Shown one piece after another: positions 16,725 through 25,713 of a DNA stretch of 36,874 nucleotides. Where the stretch lies: positions 1 to 36,874 of the forward strand of contig CALJAP010000205.1 of assembly GCA_938027655.1 (NCBI GenBank), in the 5' to 3' direction. The notes below the pieces were generated by a model. The model searched no databases. It worked only from the letters and a program-made list of their open reading frames with translations, and was not told the DNA's origin. A program made the position numbers and the translations under genes. Within the stretch, counting starts at the first letter, position 1. Each line of letters starts with the position of its first letter. The stretch is from an uncultured bacterium (GTDB taxonomy: Bacteria; Armatimonadota; HRBIN16).

Positions 16725-17855
16725 CTACTGAGTCACCTCGGGGGCTCTCCCGATGGTTATCGACAGGCTCACTTCCTTGCCGTTCCTCCAAACGGTCACC
16801 TCTACGCGGTCACCCGGCTTTCTGCTCATAATTTCTTCCAGCAGCTCCTGTGTGGAGTGAATCGGGCGATTCCCAAAACGACGGATTACATCGTCCGCCC
16901 GCAGCCCTGCTTTGTCTGCAGGACTGTCCGGCACCACTTCATTGACAGCCACGCCGTTCAGGTCGGGTAACCGCACACGCTTCATCAGCGAGGGGCGCAC
17001 TGCGTCGAAATAGACGCCAATCCACGGTCTTGCCCGCTTGACCGTCCCGCCCTGCACGAGAATGTCACGCACCACCTTCTTGACGTGGTTGATAGGGATG
17101 GCAAAACCGATGCCTATCGAGCCCCCTCCCGGCGGCGCAGCGATAGCGGTGTTGATTCCTATCAGCTGTCCATGAATATTTGCCAGAGCACCCCCGGAGT
17201 TGCCCTGGTTGATGGCGGCATCGGTCTGGATAGCCACCTCCAGATACCGCCCCTCCTCTACCACCAGCTTGCGCCGGTTCAACGCACTGATGACGCCAAC
17301 GGTGACGGTACTGCCCAATCCGAGCGGATTCCCTACGGCGATTGCCCAGTCACCCACGCGCAGTTTGTCGGAATCGCCCAGCTCGGCGGTAGGCAAGCCG
17401 CGAGCGTCTACTTTGATGACGGCGATGTCGGACTGTTCGTCTGCCCCCACAGGCTTTCCCAGAAAGCGTCTGCCGTCCGCCAGCGATACCACAATCTCAT
17501 CCGCGCCACGCACCACATGGTGGTTGGTGATGATGTATCCGTCGGGACTGATGATAACACCTGAGCCGGAGCCACGCATCGCTTCCTGCTGACCGAAGAA
17601 GTCTTCCAGTCTTAGCGAACGGCGCGGGCGCATGAACGTGTCGATGTTGACCACGGCAGGCTCGATGCGCGCACTGGCGTTAGCCACTGCCTCTGCGCCG
17701 GGCACACTGCCCACCGGTCTGGCGGGCGCATCCAGCGTAGCCAGCACCAGCTGTCTGGATGGGGACGGCGGCTGGTATCCCATCCAGCGCAGGATAAGCG
17801 CACACGCGGCAAAGCCAAACACGAACGCGATGACCGTGCTCCAGGGTTTGGACAT
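16725..17855 (-). CDS. HtrA/DegP-like trypsin-type serine protease with PDZ domain
   Basis: This 376-residue protein is an envelope quality-control protease of the HtrA (S1C) family. An N-terminal membrane anchor or uncleaved signal (about residues 7-25) is followed by a short linker. The protease domain carries the full triad: His113 (ITNHHVVRG), Asp143 (QSDIAVIKVD) and Ser220 (INQGNSGGAL). One PDZ domain covers about 275-370 (PWIGVYFD, GVAVNEVVPDSPADKAGLRADDVI), against two in DegP, so the layout is like DegS or HtrA-type proteins. The gene begins 6 bases after the ribH stop. With PspA and LptF in the window it adds to the envelope-maintenance set. Confidence 0.95.
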   Translation of the reverse strand: MSKPWSTVIAFVFGFAACALILRWMGYQPPSPSRQLVLATLDAPARPVGSVPGAEAVANASARIEPAVVNIDTFMRPRRSLRLEDFFGQQEAMRGSGSGVIISPDGYIITNHHVVRGADEIVVSLADGRRFLGKPVGADEQSDIAVIKVDARGLPTAELGDSDKLRVGDWAIAVGNPLGLGSTVTVGVISALNRRKLVVEEGRYLEVAIQTDAAINQGNSGGALANIHGQLIGINTAIAAPPGGGSIGIGFAIPINHVKKVVRDILVQGGTVKRARPWIGVYFDAVRPSLMKRVRLPDLNGVAVNEVVPDSPADKAGLRADDVIRRFGNRPIHSTQELLEEIMSRKPGDRVEVTVWRNGKEVSLSITIGRAPEVTQ

Positions 17856-17861
17856 TTGCCC

Positions 17862-18344
17862 TCACCGCCTCACTTCCGGCAATTGGCGCATCAGGCTAAC
17901 CATCTCTATCGCGCTGATGGCGGCATCACCGCCTTTATTGCCAGCCTTAGTGCCTGCACGCTCTATTGCCTGTTCGATGTTATCGGTTGTCAGCACGCCG
18001 AAGGCGATGGGTACACCAGACTCCAGCATACTCTGCGCAATGCCCTTCGCTGCCTCCGCCGCGATGTATTCGAAGTGAGGGGTATCTCCGCGAATCACAC
18101 AGCCGAGGCAGATGACCGCGTCGTACTGCCCGCTGCGCGCAAGACGCGCCGCCACCAGCGGGATTTCCCACGAACCCGGCACCCAGGCGACCTCCACATC
18201 GCGCTCGGTGTCCACACCGTGCCGCGCCAGTACATCCAGCGCGCCTCCCAGTAATCTGGAGGTGATGAACTCGTTGAAACGGCTCACCACAATCGCAAAG
18301 CGAAACCCTGTGGCGACCAGCTGTCCTTCATACGTTTTGGGCAT
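17862..18344 (-). CDS. ribH: 6,7-dimethyl-8-ribityllumazine synthase
   Basis: This 160-residue protein is the lumazine synthase that condenses ribityl-aminouracil with dihydroxybutanone phosphate in riboflavin synthesis. Family motifs are present in order: [13 protein letters not shown] (about 16-28), [14 protein letters not shown] (about 53-66), [20 protein letters not shown] (about 79-98, with the catalytic His in TPHFEY) and [13 protein letters not shown] (about 115-127). The C-terminal basic end and the length are normal. It overlaps the 3' end of ribBA by 17 bases, so the two riboflavin genes are translationally coupled. The ribD and ribE genes are not in the window. Confidence 0.97.
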
Positions 18345-19590
18345 GGCAAACAGTACCCTCCGGTTCCTCTTCCACTACCTGTCCGTCCTCTTCGGGCAGG
18401 ATATGTCCCAGCTTCTCCCGTTTGGCGCGCAGGTAGTGCTTGTTGTAAGGAGTGACGGTTCCCACAATCGGCACGATCTCCACAATCTTCAGACCATACG
18501 CCTCCAGTCCGATGCGTTTGGTGGGGTTGTTGGTCATCAGGCGTATCTGCTTGAGACCAAGGTCTGCCAGTATCTGCGCCCCGATGCCATAGTCACGCTC
18601 GTCAGCATGAAAGCCTAGCTCGATGTTGGCATCTACCGTGTCCAGCCCCTGGTCCTGCAGGGCGTAAGCCCGCAGTTTATTCAACAGACCGATACCGCGC
18701 CCCTCCTGCTGGATATACAGCAGCACACCGCGCCCCTCCTCGGCGATTTTGTGCAGGGCGATTTCGAGCTGGCTTCCGCAGTCACACCGCAACGACTCCA
18801 GCAGGTCACCCGTCAGGCAGCTGGAGTGCACCCGCACCAGCGTGGGTTTGCCGTCGGAAACATCCCCCATCACCAGCGCAACGTAGGGATTGGGGTCTAC
18901 CGTGCATTCGTAGGCGTGAACGGTGAAATTGCCGTAGCGAGTGGGCAGTTTGGCTACCGCCACTTTGTTCACTAGCTTCTCGTAGCGACGCCGATAGCGG
19001 ATGAGGTCTTCGATGGTCACCAGACACATATCGTACTGACGTGCCAGTTCGAGAAGCTGCGGCACGCGAGCCATCGTGCCGTCCTCGTTCATAATCTCGC
19101 AGATAACGCCTGCCGGGTACAGCTCGGCCAACCGCGCGAGGTCCACAGCGGCTTCGGTGTGTCCGGCGCGTCGCAGGACGCCACCATCCACAGCGCGGAG
19201 CGGGAACACATGCCCCGGCTTCTCGAAGTCCTCCGGGCGGGCGCGCGGGTCCACAAACAGGCGAACGGTCTGCGCCCTGTCGAAGGCGGAAATGCCCGTT
19301 GTGGTTCCGATTCGGGCGTCGATGGGTTCCATCATGGCGGTGCCATGTCTGGCGGTGTACCTGCTGGTGATAGGACCGATTCGCAGCTCGTCCAAACGTT
19401 GGCCGGTGGCGGCAAGACAAATCAATCCCCGACCATACTTCGCCATGAAGTTAATGGCTTCGGGGGTCACCTTTTCCGCCGCAATGACGAAGTCGCCCTC
19501 GTTCTCGCGGTCTTCGTCATCTACCACGATGATTATCTCCCCACGCTTCAGCCGTTCGAGAGCTTCCTCGATGGGGCAAAAGTCGCTCAT
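18328..19590 (-). CDS. ribBA: Bifunctional 3,4-dihydroxy-2-butanone-4-phosphate synthase / GTP cyclohydrolase II
   Basis: This 420-residue bifunctional enzyme supplies both precursors of riboflavin. The N-terminal half (about 1-205) is the DHBP synthase, with the acidic loop [11 protein letters not shown] near residues 24-34. The C-terminal half (about 210-400) is GTP cyclohydrolase II, with the zinc cysteines in [19 protein letters not shown] (about 255-273) and [20 protein letters not shown] (about 294-313). I chose ATG at 19590 because GGAGGG lies 5-10 bases upstream; an in-frame upstream start at 19608 lacks such a site. It is the first gene of the seven-gene minus-strand run. I looked for an FMN riboswitch in the 120 bases upstream and see none. 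Confidence 0.96.
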
Positions 19591-19664
19591 AACTACCCTC
19601 CGGTGCAACCGGCTATGTTAATGATACCAGCACCTGTATCTTTCACGCAACCGTTGTTATGAAA

Positions 19665-19710: not shown

Positions 19711-20799
19711 CTACGCGGTTGTGCTTTGCTGAGGCTGGCTCGCCCGGAAGAACTGCCATACCATCCAGCCGACCACTGCCAGCCCTATCACCAGCAGCAC
19801 CGCAAAGATGACAAACATCGCCCACTGGGGATTTACCGGCAGGGTGTTTACGTTCAGGTGCTCCCCCAGGAGCATCTGTCGAACGCGATGGCGCGTCACC
19901 GCCATCAACGTGACGGTCAGCGCAACCAGAACGGTCGCTCCTATCGCGCTGCGCTGTGCCGCCAGCAGGGCCAACACCGCCAGCACAACTCCCGCCCAAA
20001 GCACGACGGTATCCACCATGTTCATCCCCAGGAAGTTCATCATCACCCCCTGCGGCAGCTTCACCAGGAACCACAGCCCAACGGCGAACTGCAGCACCGT
20101 CGCGCCGACGAACCAACGCAAGCCGTAGCGCGTCGCTTCCGCAGACCACTCCGCATCGGTCTTCCGGTAGCCTGCTGCCAGTAGCAGGATACCCAACCCC
20201 GTCACCGCAAACGCGGCCACAACGAAGTGCAGGTAACGCGGGATAAGCGTCGGCTCCGACCAGTTCAGATTCAAGCCCGATGCGCTGGCAGCGTACATCT
20301 CCGCCCATTTAGCCGGAGAGATGCTCAGGGTGGCGTTGTGGGTAAACAGCAGACCGACGGCGAGAATGAACAGCGCGCTAATCCACGCGACCACGCCTGC
20401 CTTCGCACCAAGCCACTCCGGGCGGAACTGCACCAGATACAGCCCGTAGTACGCCAGCAACACCAGCAGTATCACCGACAGCCAGAACCATGCCATCAGC
20501 ACCGAGGCGGTGTAGAAGGCTTGACCGTACAGCACCTGCACAAACAGCAGAGGTGCAATACCGAGCGTGATGGTCAACGACATGGTAACCGGCAACGCTC
20601 TGGACAGACGCTGGCTGAGCTTCGCGCAGAACTCGCTGTGCTTCGCGCGCCAAGTACTCAGCGCCAGCACCACACTACCCCCCAGTAGCAGGTTCATCGC
20701 CAGCACGTGCAGGATAAACGTGAACACCAGCAGTATCTGCAGTAACCACGCAGGAGCAGGCAGCCCTGCCGGGTCAGGTGGGGGAACCACAACTGGCAT
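19711..20799 (-). CDS. CydA-like membrane subunit (second, divergent copy)
   Basis: This 362-residue protein has about nine membrane helices and no soluble domain. Its N-terminal helix has L-H31 with G40 nine residues on (ILHVLAMNLLLGG), the spacing of the haem b595 ligand helix in CydA. PRYLH191FVVAAFAVTG matches the CydA helix carrying the low-spin haem b558 His ligand (H186 in E. coli). The helix corresponding to the CydA Glu-rich helix 3 (about 100-121) keeps YYGLYL but has lost both glutamates. No quinol-binding Q-loop is seen between helices. The gene follows the cytochrome c-containing partner by 18 bases with a strong GGAGGTGG site. I read it as a degenerate CydA paralogue forming a heterodimer with that partner. 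It does not look like CydB or cytochrome c oxidase, but this rests on alignment by eye. Confidence 0.6.
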   Translation of the reverse strand: MPVVVPPPDPAGLPAPAWLLQILLVFTFILHVLAMNLLLGGSVVLALSTWRAKHSEFCAKLSQRLSRALPVTMSLTITLGIAPLLFVQVLYGQAFYTASVLMAWFWLSVILLVLLAYYGLYLVQFRPEWLGAKAGVVAWISALFILAVGLLFTHNATLSISPAKWAEMYAASASGLNLNWSEPTLIPRYLHFVVAAFAVTGLGILLLAAGYRKTDAEWSAEATRYGLRWFVGATVLQFAVGLWFLVKLPQGVMMNFLGMNMVDTVVLWAGVVLAVLALLAAQRSAIGATVLVALTVTLMAVTRHRVRQMLLGEHLNVNTLPVNPQWAMFVIFAVLLVIGLAVVGWMVWQFFRASQPQQSTTA

Positions 20800-20817
20800 T
20801 TGTTTCCACCTCCTTCC

Positions 20818-22122
20818 CTACGGACGCGCCGCGGTCTGCTGCGGCGCATTGTTGAGGCTGTAAAGCCACTCTACCAGCGCTGTGCGTTCCTCATCATTAC
20901 CCAGAAACGGCGGCATGTAGCCCTTCAGCTGGTCTAGTTTCTGTATCTGCATGTCCAGAAAGTCCCTCTCCCAGCCTTTCACCGCAAACTTGATGCCGTT
21001 GAAGCCGTTGACGGTATGGCACGATTGACAGGAAAAGCGAAATACCTTCTCGCCCATCACCAGCGGATTGTGCCTATCCTGCTCGGTCAATAGTGCCCAC
21101 TTCGCGGAGCCAAGCACTCCCTGTTCCCAGACCTTCTGTGTCTCTTCGGCACGTATCGCGTTGGAGTACATGTAGTTGTAGATGATGTAGGGCTTACGCA
21201 CCGCCTCGCGCACCCACTCGGTCACTCCGGTAGTCATCAGCCCCAGCGCGACGATGACAAACGCAAAGGTCACATGGAACCGCCGCGGGAACAGGAAGGG
21301 TCCTACAAGCGTGGCTAGGAAGACGAAGGCGGAAAAGATGATGCTGGCGGCGGCAAACAGGGTGACCACCGGCGCACCACCCATTGAAATCTCTCGCGCC
21401 TGGTCAGGGATACGCGAGATGTACCAGATACCGCCAATCGGGATGATGCTCATGCCCACCAACACCCATTTGGAAGCGTACTTTACCACCTTTTCGCGCA
21501 GCGCTTCATCCGCTTCCGCCGAGGCGGTGATAAGGGCATACAACCCCGCCAGTGCGATGGTAACCGCCGTGCGCACCACCAACGAGGGCAACATCGAGGG
21601 GTTGAAGAAAGCATCTATGATGGAACCTGTCTCCGTCCATCTACCAGTGGTCAACATAAAGGTCAGGATGCCGTTAATCATGAGCAGGCTCAACCACGCA
21701 CCCGCAAAGTAAATCCAGCCGACCGTCATGTGGGTTCGAGCATCCAGACGGTTCCAACCGTAGTAGTAGATGAACGCCGCCAGCAGCTCGATCACGAAGA
21801 ACACCCATTCGATCGCCCACGCCCATACGAAGATATGGATGAGCGCAGAGGTGGCTGACGGGTGCACCAAGCCAATGGCCCACCAGATACCGACCCCGCT
21901 GACCGCACCGAACACCAGCACCACCAGAATGAAGAAGGTGCTGTGGCGTTTGAGGTACTCCAGCAGCGCGCTGTCTCCCTCCTGACGTGCCTTGCGTTCG
22001 GTGAGCACGAGAAACAATCCCGCACCGATGGCGAAGTGTGAGACAAACACGTGCAGGATGGCGATGGTGCCGATGAGCATCCCACCACCGATCAGGGGAA
22101 TGTCCCAAAACGGGTACTCCAT
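20818..22122 (-). CDS. Cytochrome bd-type oxidase subunit I-like protein with C-terminal cytochrome c domain
   Basis: This 434-residue protein has about eight membrane helices that follow CydA. H24 with G33 nine residues on (ILHVFVSHFAIG) matches the haem b595 ligand helix. E112 plus YYYGWNRL matches the Glu-containing helix 3, and E306 in TEWVREAVRKPYIIY matches the conserved Glu before the GRQPW motif. The low-spin haem His helix has Arg184 where His is expected (VVRTAVTIALAG). The region that carries the quinol Q-loop is very short. Residues 355-425 form a cytochrome c domain with CQSCH (365-369) and a likely axial Met403 (GYMPPF). This suggests an oxygen-reducing or related complex fed by a c-type haem instead of directly by quinol. 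It is the first gene of a two-gene operon with GGAGGAGGTG upstream of the ATG. Confidence 0.75.
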   Translation of the reverse strand: MEYPFWDIPLIGGGMLIGTIAILHVFVSHFAIGAGLFLVLTERKARQEGDSALLEYLKRHSTFFILVVLVFGAVSGVGIWWAIGLVHPSATSALIHIFVWAWAIEWVFFVIELLAAFIYYYGWNRLDARTHMTVGWIYFAGAWLSLLMINGILTFMLTTGRWTETGSIIDAFFNPSMLPSLVVRTAVTIALAGLYALITASAEADEALREKVVKYASKWVLVGMSIIPIGGIWYISRIPDQAREISMGGAPVVTLFAAASIIFSAFVFLATLVGPFLFPRRFHVTFAFVIVALGLMTTGVTEWVREAVRKPYIIYNYMYSNAIRAEETQKVWEQGVLGSAKWALLTEQDRHNPLVMGEKVFRFSCQSCHTVNGFNGIKFAVKGWERDFLDMQIQKLDQLKGYMPPFLGNDEERTALVEWLYSLNNAPQQTAARP

Positions 22123-24021: not shown

Positions 24022-24074
24022 TCCATACCGGTATCTCACACAGCACTTGAGATTTACAGGTGGAACAAGGCTCT

Positions 24075-24809
24075 ATGTTACGCGGACTGTACATTGCGGC
24101 GTCGGGAATGCTGGCACAACAGGTGCGGCACGAATCCATTGCCAACAACCTCGCCAACGCCGATACCACCGGCTACAAGGCGGACGAGGCGGTGTTTCGC
24201 ACCGCTCTGAATGGGGCAATCTGGCGACATCGCGACCCGCAAAAGGGCGCACCAACGCCGCAGGTGGGTAAGCTTTGCTTTGGCGCAGAGGTAGACGAAG
24301 TGGTCACCGACCTGCGTCCCGGAGCGATTGCGCCTACCGGGCGTCCGCTGGACGTGGCTATCGACGGTGAGGGCTTTTTCGTCATCAACACACCGCAAGG
24401 TGAACGATACACCCGCGACGGCGCATTTCGGCAGTCAGCGGACGGCACATTGGTAACAGCGGATGGGATGCCGGTACTGGGCATACGGGGCATCATCCGC
24501 AGTGCGAACGCGCCTCTGACCGTCGCACCCAACGGCGATGTACTGGCGGACGGGCAGGTGATAGACCGCTTGCGTATCGTGCAGTTGCAGAACGCTTCAA
24601 AAGAGGGCGCAAATCGCTTCGCGGGAAACGCACAACCACTGCAGCAGTTCAGCCTGCAGGTCGGCGCGCTGGAACGCTCCAACGTGTCTGTGGTGCAGGC
24701 GATGGTGGATATGATTGTGGCGATGCGTGCCTACGAGGCATCGCACCGTGCGGTTCTGGCGCATGATGAAACGCTGCAGAGAGCGGTAAACGATGTCGGT
24801 AAAGTGTAA
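24075..24809 (+). CDS. flgF: Flagellar basal-body rod protein, FlgF-like
   Basis: This 244-residue protein is a rod/hook family member of the axial flagellar structure. The N-terminal motif MLRGLYIAASGMLAQQ, then IANNLANADTTGYKAD (about 23-38), and the C-terminal helix ERSNVSVVQAMVDMIVAMRAYEASHRAV (about 203-230) are the two conserved ends that form the coiled-coil core. It is slightly shorter than the following FlgG and comes first, so I call it FlgF; the FlgF/FlgG distinction by eye is imperfect. ATG 24075 fits the family start; a GTG five codons upstream is in frame but adds residues foreign to the family. It is transcribed from the sigma28 promoter upstream. Confidence 0.88.
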   Translation: MLRGLYIAASGMLAQQVRHESIANNLANADTTGYKADEAVFRTALNGAIWRHRDPQKGAPTPQVGKLCFGAEVDEVVTDLRPGAIAPTGRPLDVAIDGEGFFVINTPQGERYTRDGAFRQSADGTLVTADGMPVLGIRGIIRSANAPLTVAPNGDVLADGQVIDRLRIVQLQNASKEGANRFAGNAQPLQQFSLQVGALERSNVSVVQAMVDMIVAMRAYEASHRAVLAHDETLQRAVNDVGKV

Positions 24810-24828
24810 CATGAGGTTTTCGGCTGGA

Positions 24829-24884
24829 CCGTGCGTGCGCCAGGCACGGAAGCCGATGATTGCCCCTGACCGACCGAAGGGGCA
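24829..24884 (+). other. Two RNA hairpins between flgF and flgG
   Basis: The 115-base gap between flgF and flgG is by far the longest in the flagellar operon. It holds two potential hairpins: CCGTGC (24829-24834) with GCACGG (24844-24849), and TGCCCCT (24861-24867) with AGGGGCA (24878-24884). Neither is followed by a T run, so they look like processing or translation-control structures and not terminators. No known riboswitch consensus is recognised. Confidence 0.4.
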
Positions 24885-24924
24885 CAAGGGATGACGCAAA
24901 ACGTACGGAGGAGGTTTGCAGAAA

Positions 24925-25713
24925 ATGATGCGGGCGCTTTTCACATCGGCGACCGGCATGGCAGCACAGCAGTTGCATCTGGATGTTATCGCCAACAACC
25001 TGGCGAACGTCAACACCGTCGGCTTCAAACGTAGCCGAGCGGACTTTCAGGACCTGCTGTATCAAACGCTTCGTCCCGCGGGTACTACCGCCGCTCGCGG
25101 CGCACAGGTACCTACGGGGCTCAACGTTGGACTGGGCGTGCGCCCTGTCTCTACTGCCACCATCTTCACCACCGGCACGCTGCAAAAGACCGACAACCCT
25201 ACCGACATGGCGATAGAGGGCGACGGCTTCTTTAAGGTGCTTTTGCCCGATGGTACGGTGGCATATACTCGTGATGGCGCGTTGAAGCTAGACGTGCAGG
25301 GACGACTTGTGACCTCTGACGGCTACCCCCTGGAACCGGAAATTATCATCCCGCAGGATGCGCAGACGGTCACCGTCGGCAAAGACGGAACGGTTTCGGT
25401 GTTACGCGCGGGGCAAACAACACCCGATGAAGTGGGGCAAATCCAGCTGGCGCGCTTCGTGAACCCCAGCGGCTTACAGCATCTGGGGCAGAACCTGTAC
25501 AAACCTACTGCCGCCTCCGGCGACCCGGTAGAGGGCGCGCCCGGCGAGCAAGGCTTCGGCACGGTCGCCCAGAACATGCTGGAGATGTCCAATGTGCAGA
25601 TAGTGGATGAAATGGTGGCGATGATTATCGCCCAGCGCGCCTACGAAATCAGCGCGAAAGCCATCCAAACTTCGGATGAGATGCTGAATATCGCCAACAA
25701 CCTGCGGCGGTAG
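24925..25713 (+). CDS. flgG: Flagellar distal rod protein FlgG
   Basis: This 262-residue protein forms the distal rod of the flagellum. It matches FlgG at both ends: [38 protein letters not shown] (about 23-44) and the C-terminal segment [38 protein letters not shown] (about 216-253). The FlgG-specific region QTLRPAG (about 49-55) after the N-terminal helix is present, as is the internal [10 protein letters not shown] (about 93-102). The start is ATG 24925, with GGAGGAGG 10 bases upstream; a TTG at 24916 is too close to that site. The length equals typical FlgG (about 260). Confidence 0.95.

Follow-up and report, generated by a model that had tools for sequence, protein, structure and literature searches.

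Two neighbouring genes of an Armatimonadota genome encode a conserved pair of cytochrome bd-related membrane proteins, probably a cytochrome c-fed oxidase

Introduction

The window, i.e. the whole stretch of 36,874 nucleotides analysed here, belongs to an uncultured bacterium of the Armatimonadota and carries two neighbouring genes coding for CydA-like membrane proteins, the larger of which ends in a cytochrome c domain. What kind of enzyme could such a pair constitute, and from which donor would it receive its electrons? In the cytochrome bd superfamily, the qOR, OR-C and OR-N families are recognised (PMC10839748, PMC11707229, PMC13189123), and CydAA' pairs as well as OR-N5 pairs beside alternative complex III are known (PMC12342949). 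In the solved bd enzymes, the low-spin haem b558 is held by His186 and Met393, b595 by Glu445 and haem d by His19, with Glu99 facing haem d (PMC8585947, PMC6853902). The general kind of protein encountered here, CydA families devoid of a quinol site and CydA-CydA' pairs, is already described. To our knowledge, no bd-type oxidase taking electrons from cytochrome c has been purified so far.

A first-pass annotation of this DNA had proposed a heterodimer with complementary haem-ligand loss, a shared active site and electrons supplied by a c-haem rather than by quinol. In the present analysis, its observation was confirmed and its interpretation was partly supported.

Organization of the locus

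The two genes are read in the same direction on the minus strand and are separated by 18 nucleotides which contain a strong ribosome-binding site ahead of the small gene (Table 1). Riboflavin synthesis genes and a trypsin-like protease are found downstream of the pair (16725-19608 of the window), a MFS transporter and flagellar basal-body rod-like genes (24060-25713) upstream of it. These neighbours are apparently unrelated to the pair.

Table 1. Genes and residues of interest in the window
Feature	Position	Strand	Basis
Large subunit gene	20818..22122	(-)	ORF, 434 aa; CydA-like, 8 TM helices and C-terminal cytochrome c domain
H24 of large, E. coli CydA His19 column (haem d ligand)	22051..22053	(-)	Alignment; 111/112 rows covering H24
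E105 of large, E. coli Glu99 column	21808..21810	(-)	Alignment; 122/124
E112 of large, second conserved Glu of TM3 (E. coli Glu107)	21787..21789	(-)	Alignment; 122/124
R184 of large, beside low-spin haem His186 column (V183)	21571..21573	(-)	Arg in 127/127; alignment
E306 of large, E. coli Glu445 (b595 ligand), in REAVRKPY	21205..21207	(-)	Alignment; 125/127
Cytochrome c domain of large, residues about 351-424	20851..21072	(-)	PF13442 match 357-420; model
CQSCH haem c motif, C365-H369	21016..21030	(-)	C365, C368, H369 in 127/127 large sequences
Met403 (MPP motif), presumed sixth ligand of haem c	20914..20916	(-)	127/127
Ribosome-binding site AAGGAGGTG of small gene	20807..20815	(-)	Sequence; between both genes
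Small subunit gene	19711..20799	(-)	ORF, 362 aa; CydA-superfamily paralogue, 9 TM helices
H31 of small, counterpart of H24/His19	20707..20709	(-)	130/130
R188 of small, one turn before H191	20236..20238	(-)	129/130
H191 of small, low-spin haem His186 column	20227..20229	(-)	Profile alignments; clade-specific, always with M299
M299 of small, on TM8	19903..19905	(-)	55/55 with H191, 2/75 without H191
H304 of small, E306/Glu445 column	19888..19890	(-)	Mostly H or D in the window's clade, Q in the other

The large subunit is a CydA homologue fused to a cytochrome c domain

Analysis of the large protein by hmmscan revealed a match to PF01654 (CydA; E 4e-12) followed by a match to PF13442 (cytochrome c; E 6.3e-8, residues 357-420). 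Its AlphaFold2 model (pLDDT 90) was compared with the PDB by Foldseek and the top match was 9r2g_A, a CydA of the qOR-2 type (E 5.7e-8), so that homology to CydA is found in both sequence and fold. The haem-ligand columns were assigned by profile alignment with canonical CydA and by alignment with 9r2g_A, and conservation was counted on up to 127 large sequences. E112 and E306, which had been noticed as standing at CydA-like positions, align with Glu107 and Glu445, the latter via the motif REAVRKPY / E-x-GRQPW; E105, in the Glu99 column, had been overlooked. E302, R305 and R309 are also invariant or nearly so. The spacing of seven residues between E105 and E112 fits a CydA without the extra Leu101 of the E. 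coli protein (PMC6853902).

The low-spin haem histidine is absent from the large protein, as had been claimed, but the profile alignment puts V183 in its column, and R184, first thought to occupy that position, stands beside it. The four commonest residues at position 183 in the 127 sequences are A, L, V and M. Since the TM6-TM7 linker counts only about 13 residues in the AlphaFold2 model, the large protein has no Q-loop, in agreement with the first reading. A Q-loop and a full ligand set are not found together in one chain, the large one lacking both the Q-loop and the low-spin histidine.

The positive-inside loops of the large protein fit an N-out topology which, with the eight transmembrane helices, would place the C-terminal cytochrome c domain in the periplasm. 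The CQSCH motif by which this domain had been recognised lies inside the PF13442 match, and Met403 is invariant. The same layout, eight transmembrane helices and a C-terminal cytochrome c, is that of the membrane urate oxidase PuuD (PMC4562309), and electrons could be imagined to flow in the reverse direction, the pair oxidising a substrate or quinol and reducing the c-haem like PuuD or a complex III analogue. This is very improbable: the urate oxidase membrane domain (DUF989) was not matched in the Pfam scan, both sequence and fold assign the family to CydA, and it has retained the ligands of the O2 site and is devoid of Q-loop.

The small subunit is a paralogue of the large one

For the small protein, nothing was matched in Pfam and nothing significant in NCBIfam. 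By hhalign, a profile of 55 small proteins was matched to a profile of 55 large proteins at 96% (E 2.6e-9), and the small-family HMM matches large proteins down to E 2e-10. In the case of the small AlphaFold2 model (pLDDT 95), all Foldseek matches in the PDB with E <= 0.01 were bd oxidase chains, CydA and CydB, with TM scores of 0.48-0.68 by query length; cytochrome bd subunits are the only good PDB matches for either model. Direct hhalign comparison of the small protein with a few canonical CydA or CydB sequences yielded E-values of about 0.1-0.2 and, as nothing came from it, the link between the small protein and bd enzymes rests on the large family and on the fold. Judged from these profiles and models, the small protein is a CydA-superfamily paralogue of the large one, and the relationship to CydA on which the first-pass annotation depended is upheld. 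The fold E-values slightly favour a position nearer CydA than CydB, the sequence alone being undecisive.

The L-H helix with a glycine nine residues on was found again in both chains (H24...G33 in the large one, H31...G40 in the small one). Q88, Y117, Y121, R188 and R303 of the small protein are kept in 128-129 of 130 sequences. Its TM3 has no Glu or Asp within the helix and H304 occupies the E306 column, in line with the loss of the glutamates already reported. A shared active site, which had been deduced from these differences, is not retained because all the high-spin haem ligands, E105 included, sit in the large chain, where they are nearly invariant, which leaves the low-spin site as the sole candidate for the partner.

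Both genes are found together across phyla

The survey of gene pairs proposed at first pass was carried out on 151 Armatimonadota genomes: the same 34 carry both the large and the small gene, which are paired in every genome where both could be searched, and the search with the large protein gave one additional weak match (G021). At least 530 relatives of the large protein were detected by a scan of one genome per species in bacteria and archaea. The best 80 of these loci belong to Bacteroidota, Acidobacteriota, Zixibacteria, Chloroflexota, Bipolaricaulota, Planctomycetota and others; the small gene adjoins the large one in 62 of them, often with a 4-nt overlap. Four of the 18 other loci reach a contig end, and the small gene was found elsewhere in all of the 14 remaining genomes (14/14). 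A relative of the small protein is also present in 68 of 297 Acidobacteriota genomes, and lineages carrying the pair include gut ones and others which probably live anaerobically. The observation is far beyond chance given the PF01654 E-value and the conservation across phyla, and the two neighbouring genes are those of a conserved two-part membrane enzyme related to cytochrome bd.

H191 and M299 of the small subunit as a candidate low-spin haem site

According to profile alignments, H191 of the small protein stands in the canonical low-spin histidine column, as the first-pass annotation had stated, and in the window's clade it is conserved with M299. Among 130 small proteins, both residues are present in 55, H191 alone in none, M299 alone in 2 and neither in 73. 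The 55 proteins with H191 and M299, a set defined by H191, have a median pairwise identity of 34% and only seven fully invariant residues, M299 being one of them. As the two residues are not found together in 75 of the 130 partners, they are clade-specific and can be neither essential to the whole family nor defining for it. At one stage, complementary ligand loss was held to be refuted since the Armatimonadota set shows no conservation of H191; this verdict was dropped when wider sampling revealed a deep clade keeping H191 and M299. What stands of the idea is its low-spin part in the window's clade, the catalytic ligands being all in the large chain and the H191/M299 pair being absent from 75 of 130 partners.

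Trees of the small proteins display two large clades. In the larger tree (127 rows), the first clade (72 rows) contains the H191/M299 proteins and a group encoded with Rieske and cytochrome b genes, whereas neither occurs in the second (55 rows). H191 changed about three times on the tree and M299 went along in the available independent comparisons, about three events being too few for statistical significance to be assessed. H191 and M299 lie at a similar depth near the periplasm, M299 being located one residue off the column of Trp441, a residue discussed for intramolecular electron transfer (PMC8585947). These positions make a His/Met low-spin haem on the small chain plausible in the window's clade. 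M299 is on TM8, whereas the canonical Met393 lies on TM7.

The pair could also be a bd relative of the OR-C type whose small subunit is purely structural, a CydB substitute in which H31, H191 and M299 pack the protein or contact lipid or quinone and bind no haem. This is a serious possibility, though we do not lean towards it: in fold the small protein resembles CydB no less than CydA, and the proteins devoid of H191/M299 make up a large and intact clade, but H31 is kept in 130 of 130 sequences, H191 and M299 are co-conserved despite the low identity of their carriers, and H191 falls in the canonical low-spin column at a depth similar to that of M299.

Operon variants and the electron donor

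The gene order small - Rieske - cytochrome b - large was found in the Armatimonadota families f7, f12, f13, f15, f22 and f25 and in 7 of 20 Acidobacteriota loci which were inspected together with wide flanks, the Rieske and cytochrome b genes being recognised by PF00355, PF00033 and PF00032. Since no separate cytochrome c1 gene is present between Rieske, cytochrome b and large in these operons, the c-haem of the large subunit would be the natural acceptor, and the organization of this sister group suggests a route from quinol to Rieske, c-haem and O2. The feeding by c-haem instead of quinol put forward at first pass fits these operons, the absent Q-loop and the invariant CxxCH...M.

Most small proteins of the Rieske/cytochrome b operons lack H191/M299. 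In one Acidobacteriota operon (L227) with Rieske and cytochrome b, the small protein still has H191 and M299. As L227 clusters, together with five relatives, with the Rieske set in the tree of the large proteins, the Rieske module may predate the loss of H191/M299. The L227 operon is a possible intermediate between both variants. A rule by which H191/M299 would be lost whenever Rieske/cytochrome b joins the operon was rejected, for L227 combines these residues with the Rieske genes, and no more than about two changes of the Rieske gene set are seen on the tree of the small proteins; loss of the two residues on gain of the module is put forward as a suggestion only.

No Rieske or cytochrome b gene adjoins the pair in the window's genome, where it stands by itself. 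No CydB (PF02322) was detected in this genome, and the absence of a canonical CydA is deduced mainly from that of CydB, a genome-wide PF01654 search having given no match, not even to the large protein. Elsewhere in the same genome, an ActF-like alternative complex III gene is followed by genes of a caa3-type cytochrome c oxidase (L175:4003-9719, G000:C94). Another cluster (L174:6034-10865, G000:C121) codes for an unusual bc-type complex: besides a Rieske gene, it contains one for a cytochrome b which continues into a long multihaem c domain (755 aa) and one for a multihaem/membrane cytochrome of 680 aa.

Proposed function

We infer that the two chains form a heterodimer which is probably a cytochrome c-fed O2 reductase of the bd type, i.e. 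a cytochrome c oxidase rather than a quinol oxidase, on the basis of sequences and models. The large chain would hold the di-haem site of O2 reduction, with a haem d-like part (H24, E105) and a b595-like part (E306), and the periplasmic c-haem at its C-terminus (C365/C368/H369/M403) would hand electrons to this site. The small chain would take the place of CydB as a paralogue and, in the window's clade, may carry the low-spin haem (H191/M299), a type of site which the large chain has lost. The c-haem should be fed by a quinol:cytochrome c oxidoreductase, which in one related group could be the Rieske/cytochrome b complex of the same operon. In the window's genome, the donor would probably be encoded at another locus and be an alternative complex III, a Rieske/cytochrome b complex or a soluble cytochrome.

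The reduction of O2 is deduced from the conservation of the di-haem ligands, from the respiratory operons and from six pair-bearing genomes of gut Planctomycetota (G474-G477, G153 and G155) in which neither COX1 nor CydB was found; these genomes are MAGs and may be incomplete. Three genomes of family f24 had been considered as a further case of the pair as sole oxidase and were discarded, COX1 being absent but CydB present. The complex could instead reduce another small molecule such as NO or peroxide, or mainly scavenge O2, and not be an energy-conserving terminal oxidase. The presence of the pair in gut and other likely anaerobic lineages would agree with this, as would the second oxidase of the window's genome and the quinol peroxidase activity of E. 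coli cytochrome bd (PMC4899803). We consider it unlikely since the ligand set is typical of a bd site which reduces O2, the operon coupling with Rieske/cytochrome b points to the respiratory chain, and nitrogen-oxide or peroxide genes were not recognised as recurring beside the pair in the loci examined. If the pair is the O2 reductase which we favour, its role in the window's genome may nevertheless be minor because of the caa3-type oxidase encoded there.

A more tentative proposal, to which we give less than an even chance, is that the haem set of a bd enzyme is split over the paralogous chains, the catalytic di-haem site and the c-haem on the large one and the low-spin H191/M299 site on the small one, the latter being replaced or bypassed in the sister group by a Rieske/cytochrome b module wired to the c-haem. 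If so, the sister group would possess a quinol:O2 supercomplex encoded by one operon and built on a bd oxidase. On the question of the electron source, the Rieske and cytochrome b operons offer a direct and testable answer for one group; for another, an additional low-spin haem on the partner is predicted from H191 and M299. The pair, widespread in environmental and gut bacteria, would represent a largely uncharacterised respiratory enzyme.

Comparison with known systems

Members of the OR-C family of the cytochrome bd superfamily carry cytochrome c and have no quinol site; the family itself was reportedly described by Murali, Gennis and Hemp in 2021 in the ISME Journal. The window's pair most likely belongs to OR-C: its large protein is a CydA homologue outside the quinol-oxidising families and carries a cytochrome c (PF13442, invariant CxxCH...M). 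The window's pair also resembles the CydAA' pairs (OR-N, archaeal) in that two CydA paralogues are encoded together. In the OR-N CydAA' of Nitrospirota and Nitrospinota, two CydA-type paralogues are thought to pair and to use cytochrome c (PMC12342949, PMC10839748); compared with their description, the c-haem is here carried by the catalytic polypeptide itself, and the catalytic Glu ligands have been lost from the partner.

With canonical cytochrome bd (CydAB, qOR; 9r2g, 5doq, 6rko), the pair has the fold in common, and the large protein keeps the counterparts of His19, Glu99, Glu107 and Glu445. It differs by the missing Q-loop and low-spin His (V183/R184 there) and by the added cytochrome c, and its partner is not CydB (PF02322). 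The actinobacterial bcc-aa3 supercomplex, in which quinol oxidation and O2 reduction are wired via a bound c-haem, is an analogue in function of the Rieske-cytochrome b-large operons; here, however, the oxidase is of the bd type and not a haem-copper enzyme, and the window has no adjoining Rieske or cytochrome b gene. In the literature covered, to which Murali et al. 2021 did not belong, neither the H191/M299 pair of the partner nor the Rieske-cytochrome b-large operon was found described.

Variants of the pair

In two gut Planctomycetota (L190 and L191, genomes G164 and G166), an insert of some 260-270 bp with an in-frame TAA interrupts the small gene, its position being identical in both genomes, and their large ORF is also unusually long (L162, L164). 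Some Planctomycetota loci have a YgaP-like membrane gene (PF11127) ahead of the pair, and a HlyD-type protein and then a long RND pump-like protein after it (L107:7647-7880; L111:10657-11763; L122:4226-7750). Finally, two Acidobacteriota homologues of the large protein have changed active-site ligands (H24F, E105F and E112Y in L239, E112S in L240) with an intact c-haem motif and R184/E306, and perhaps have a new function.
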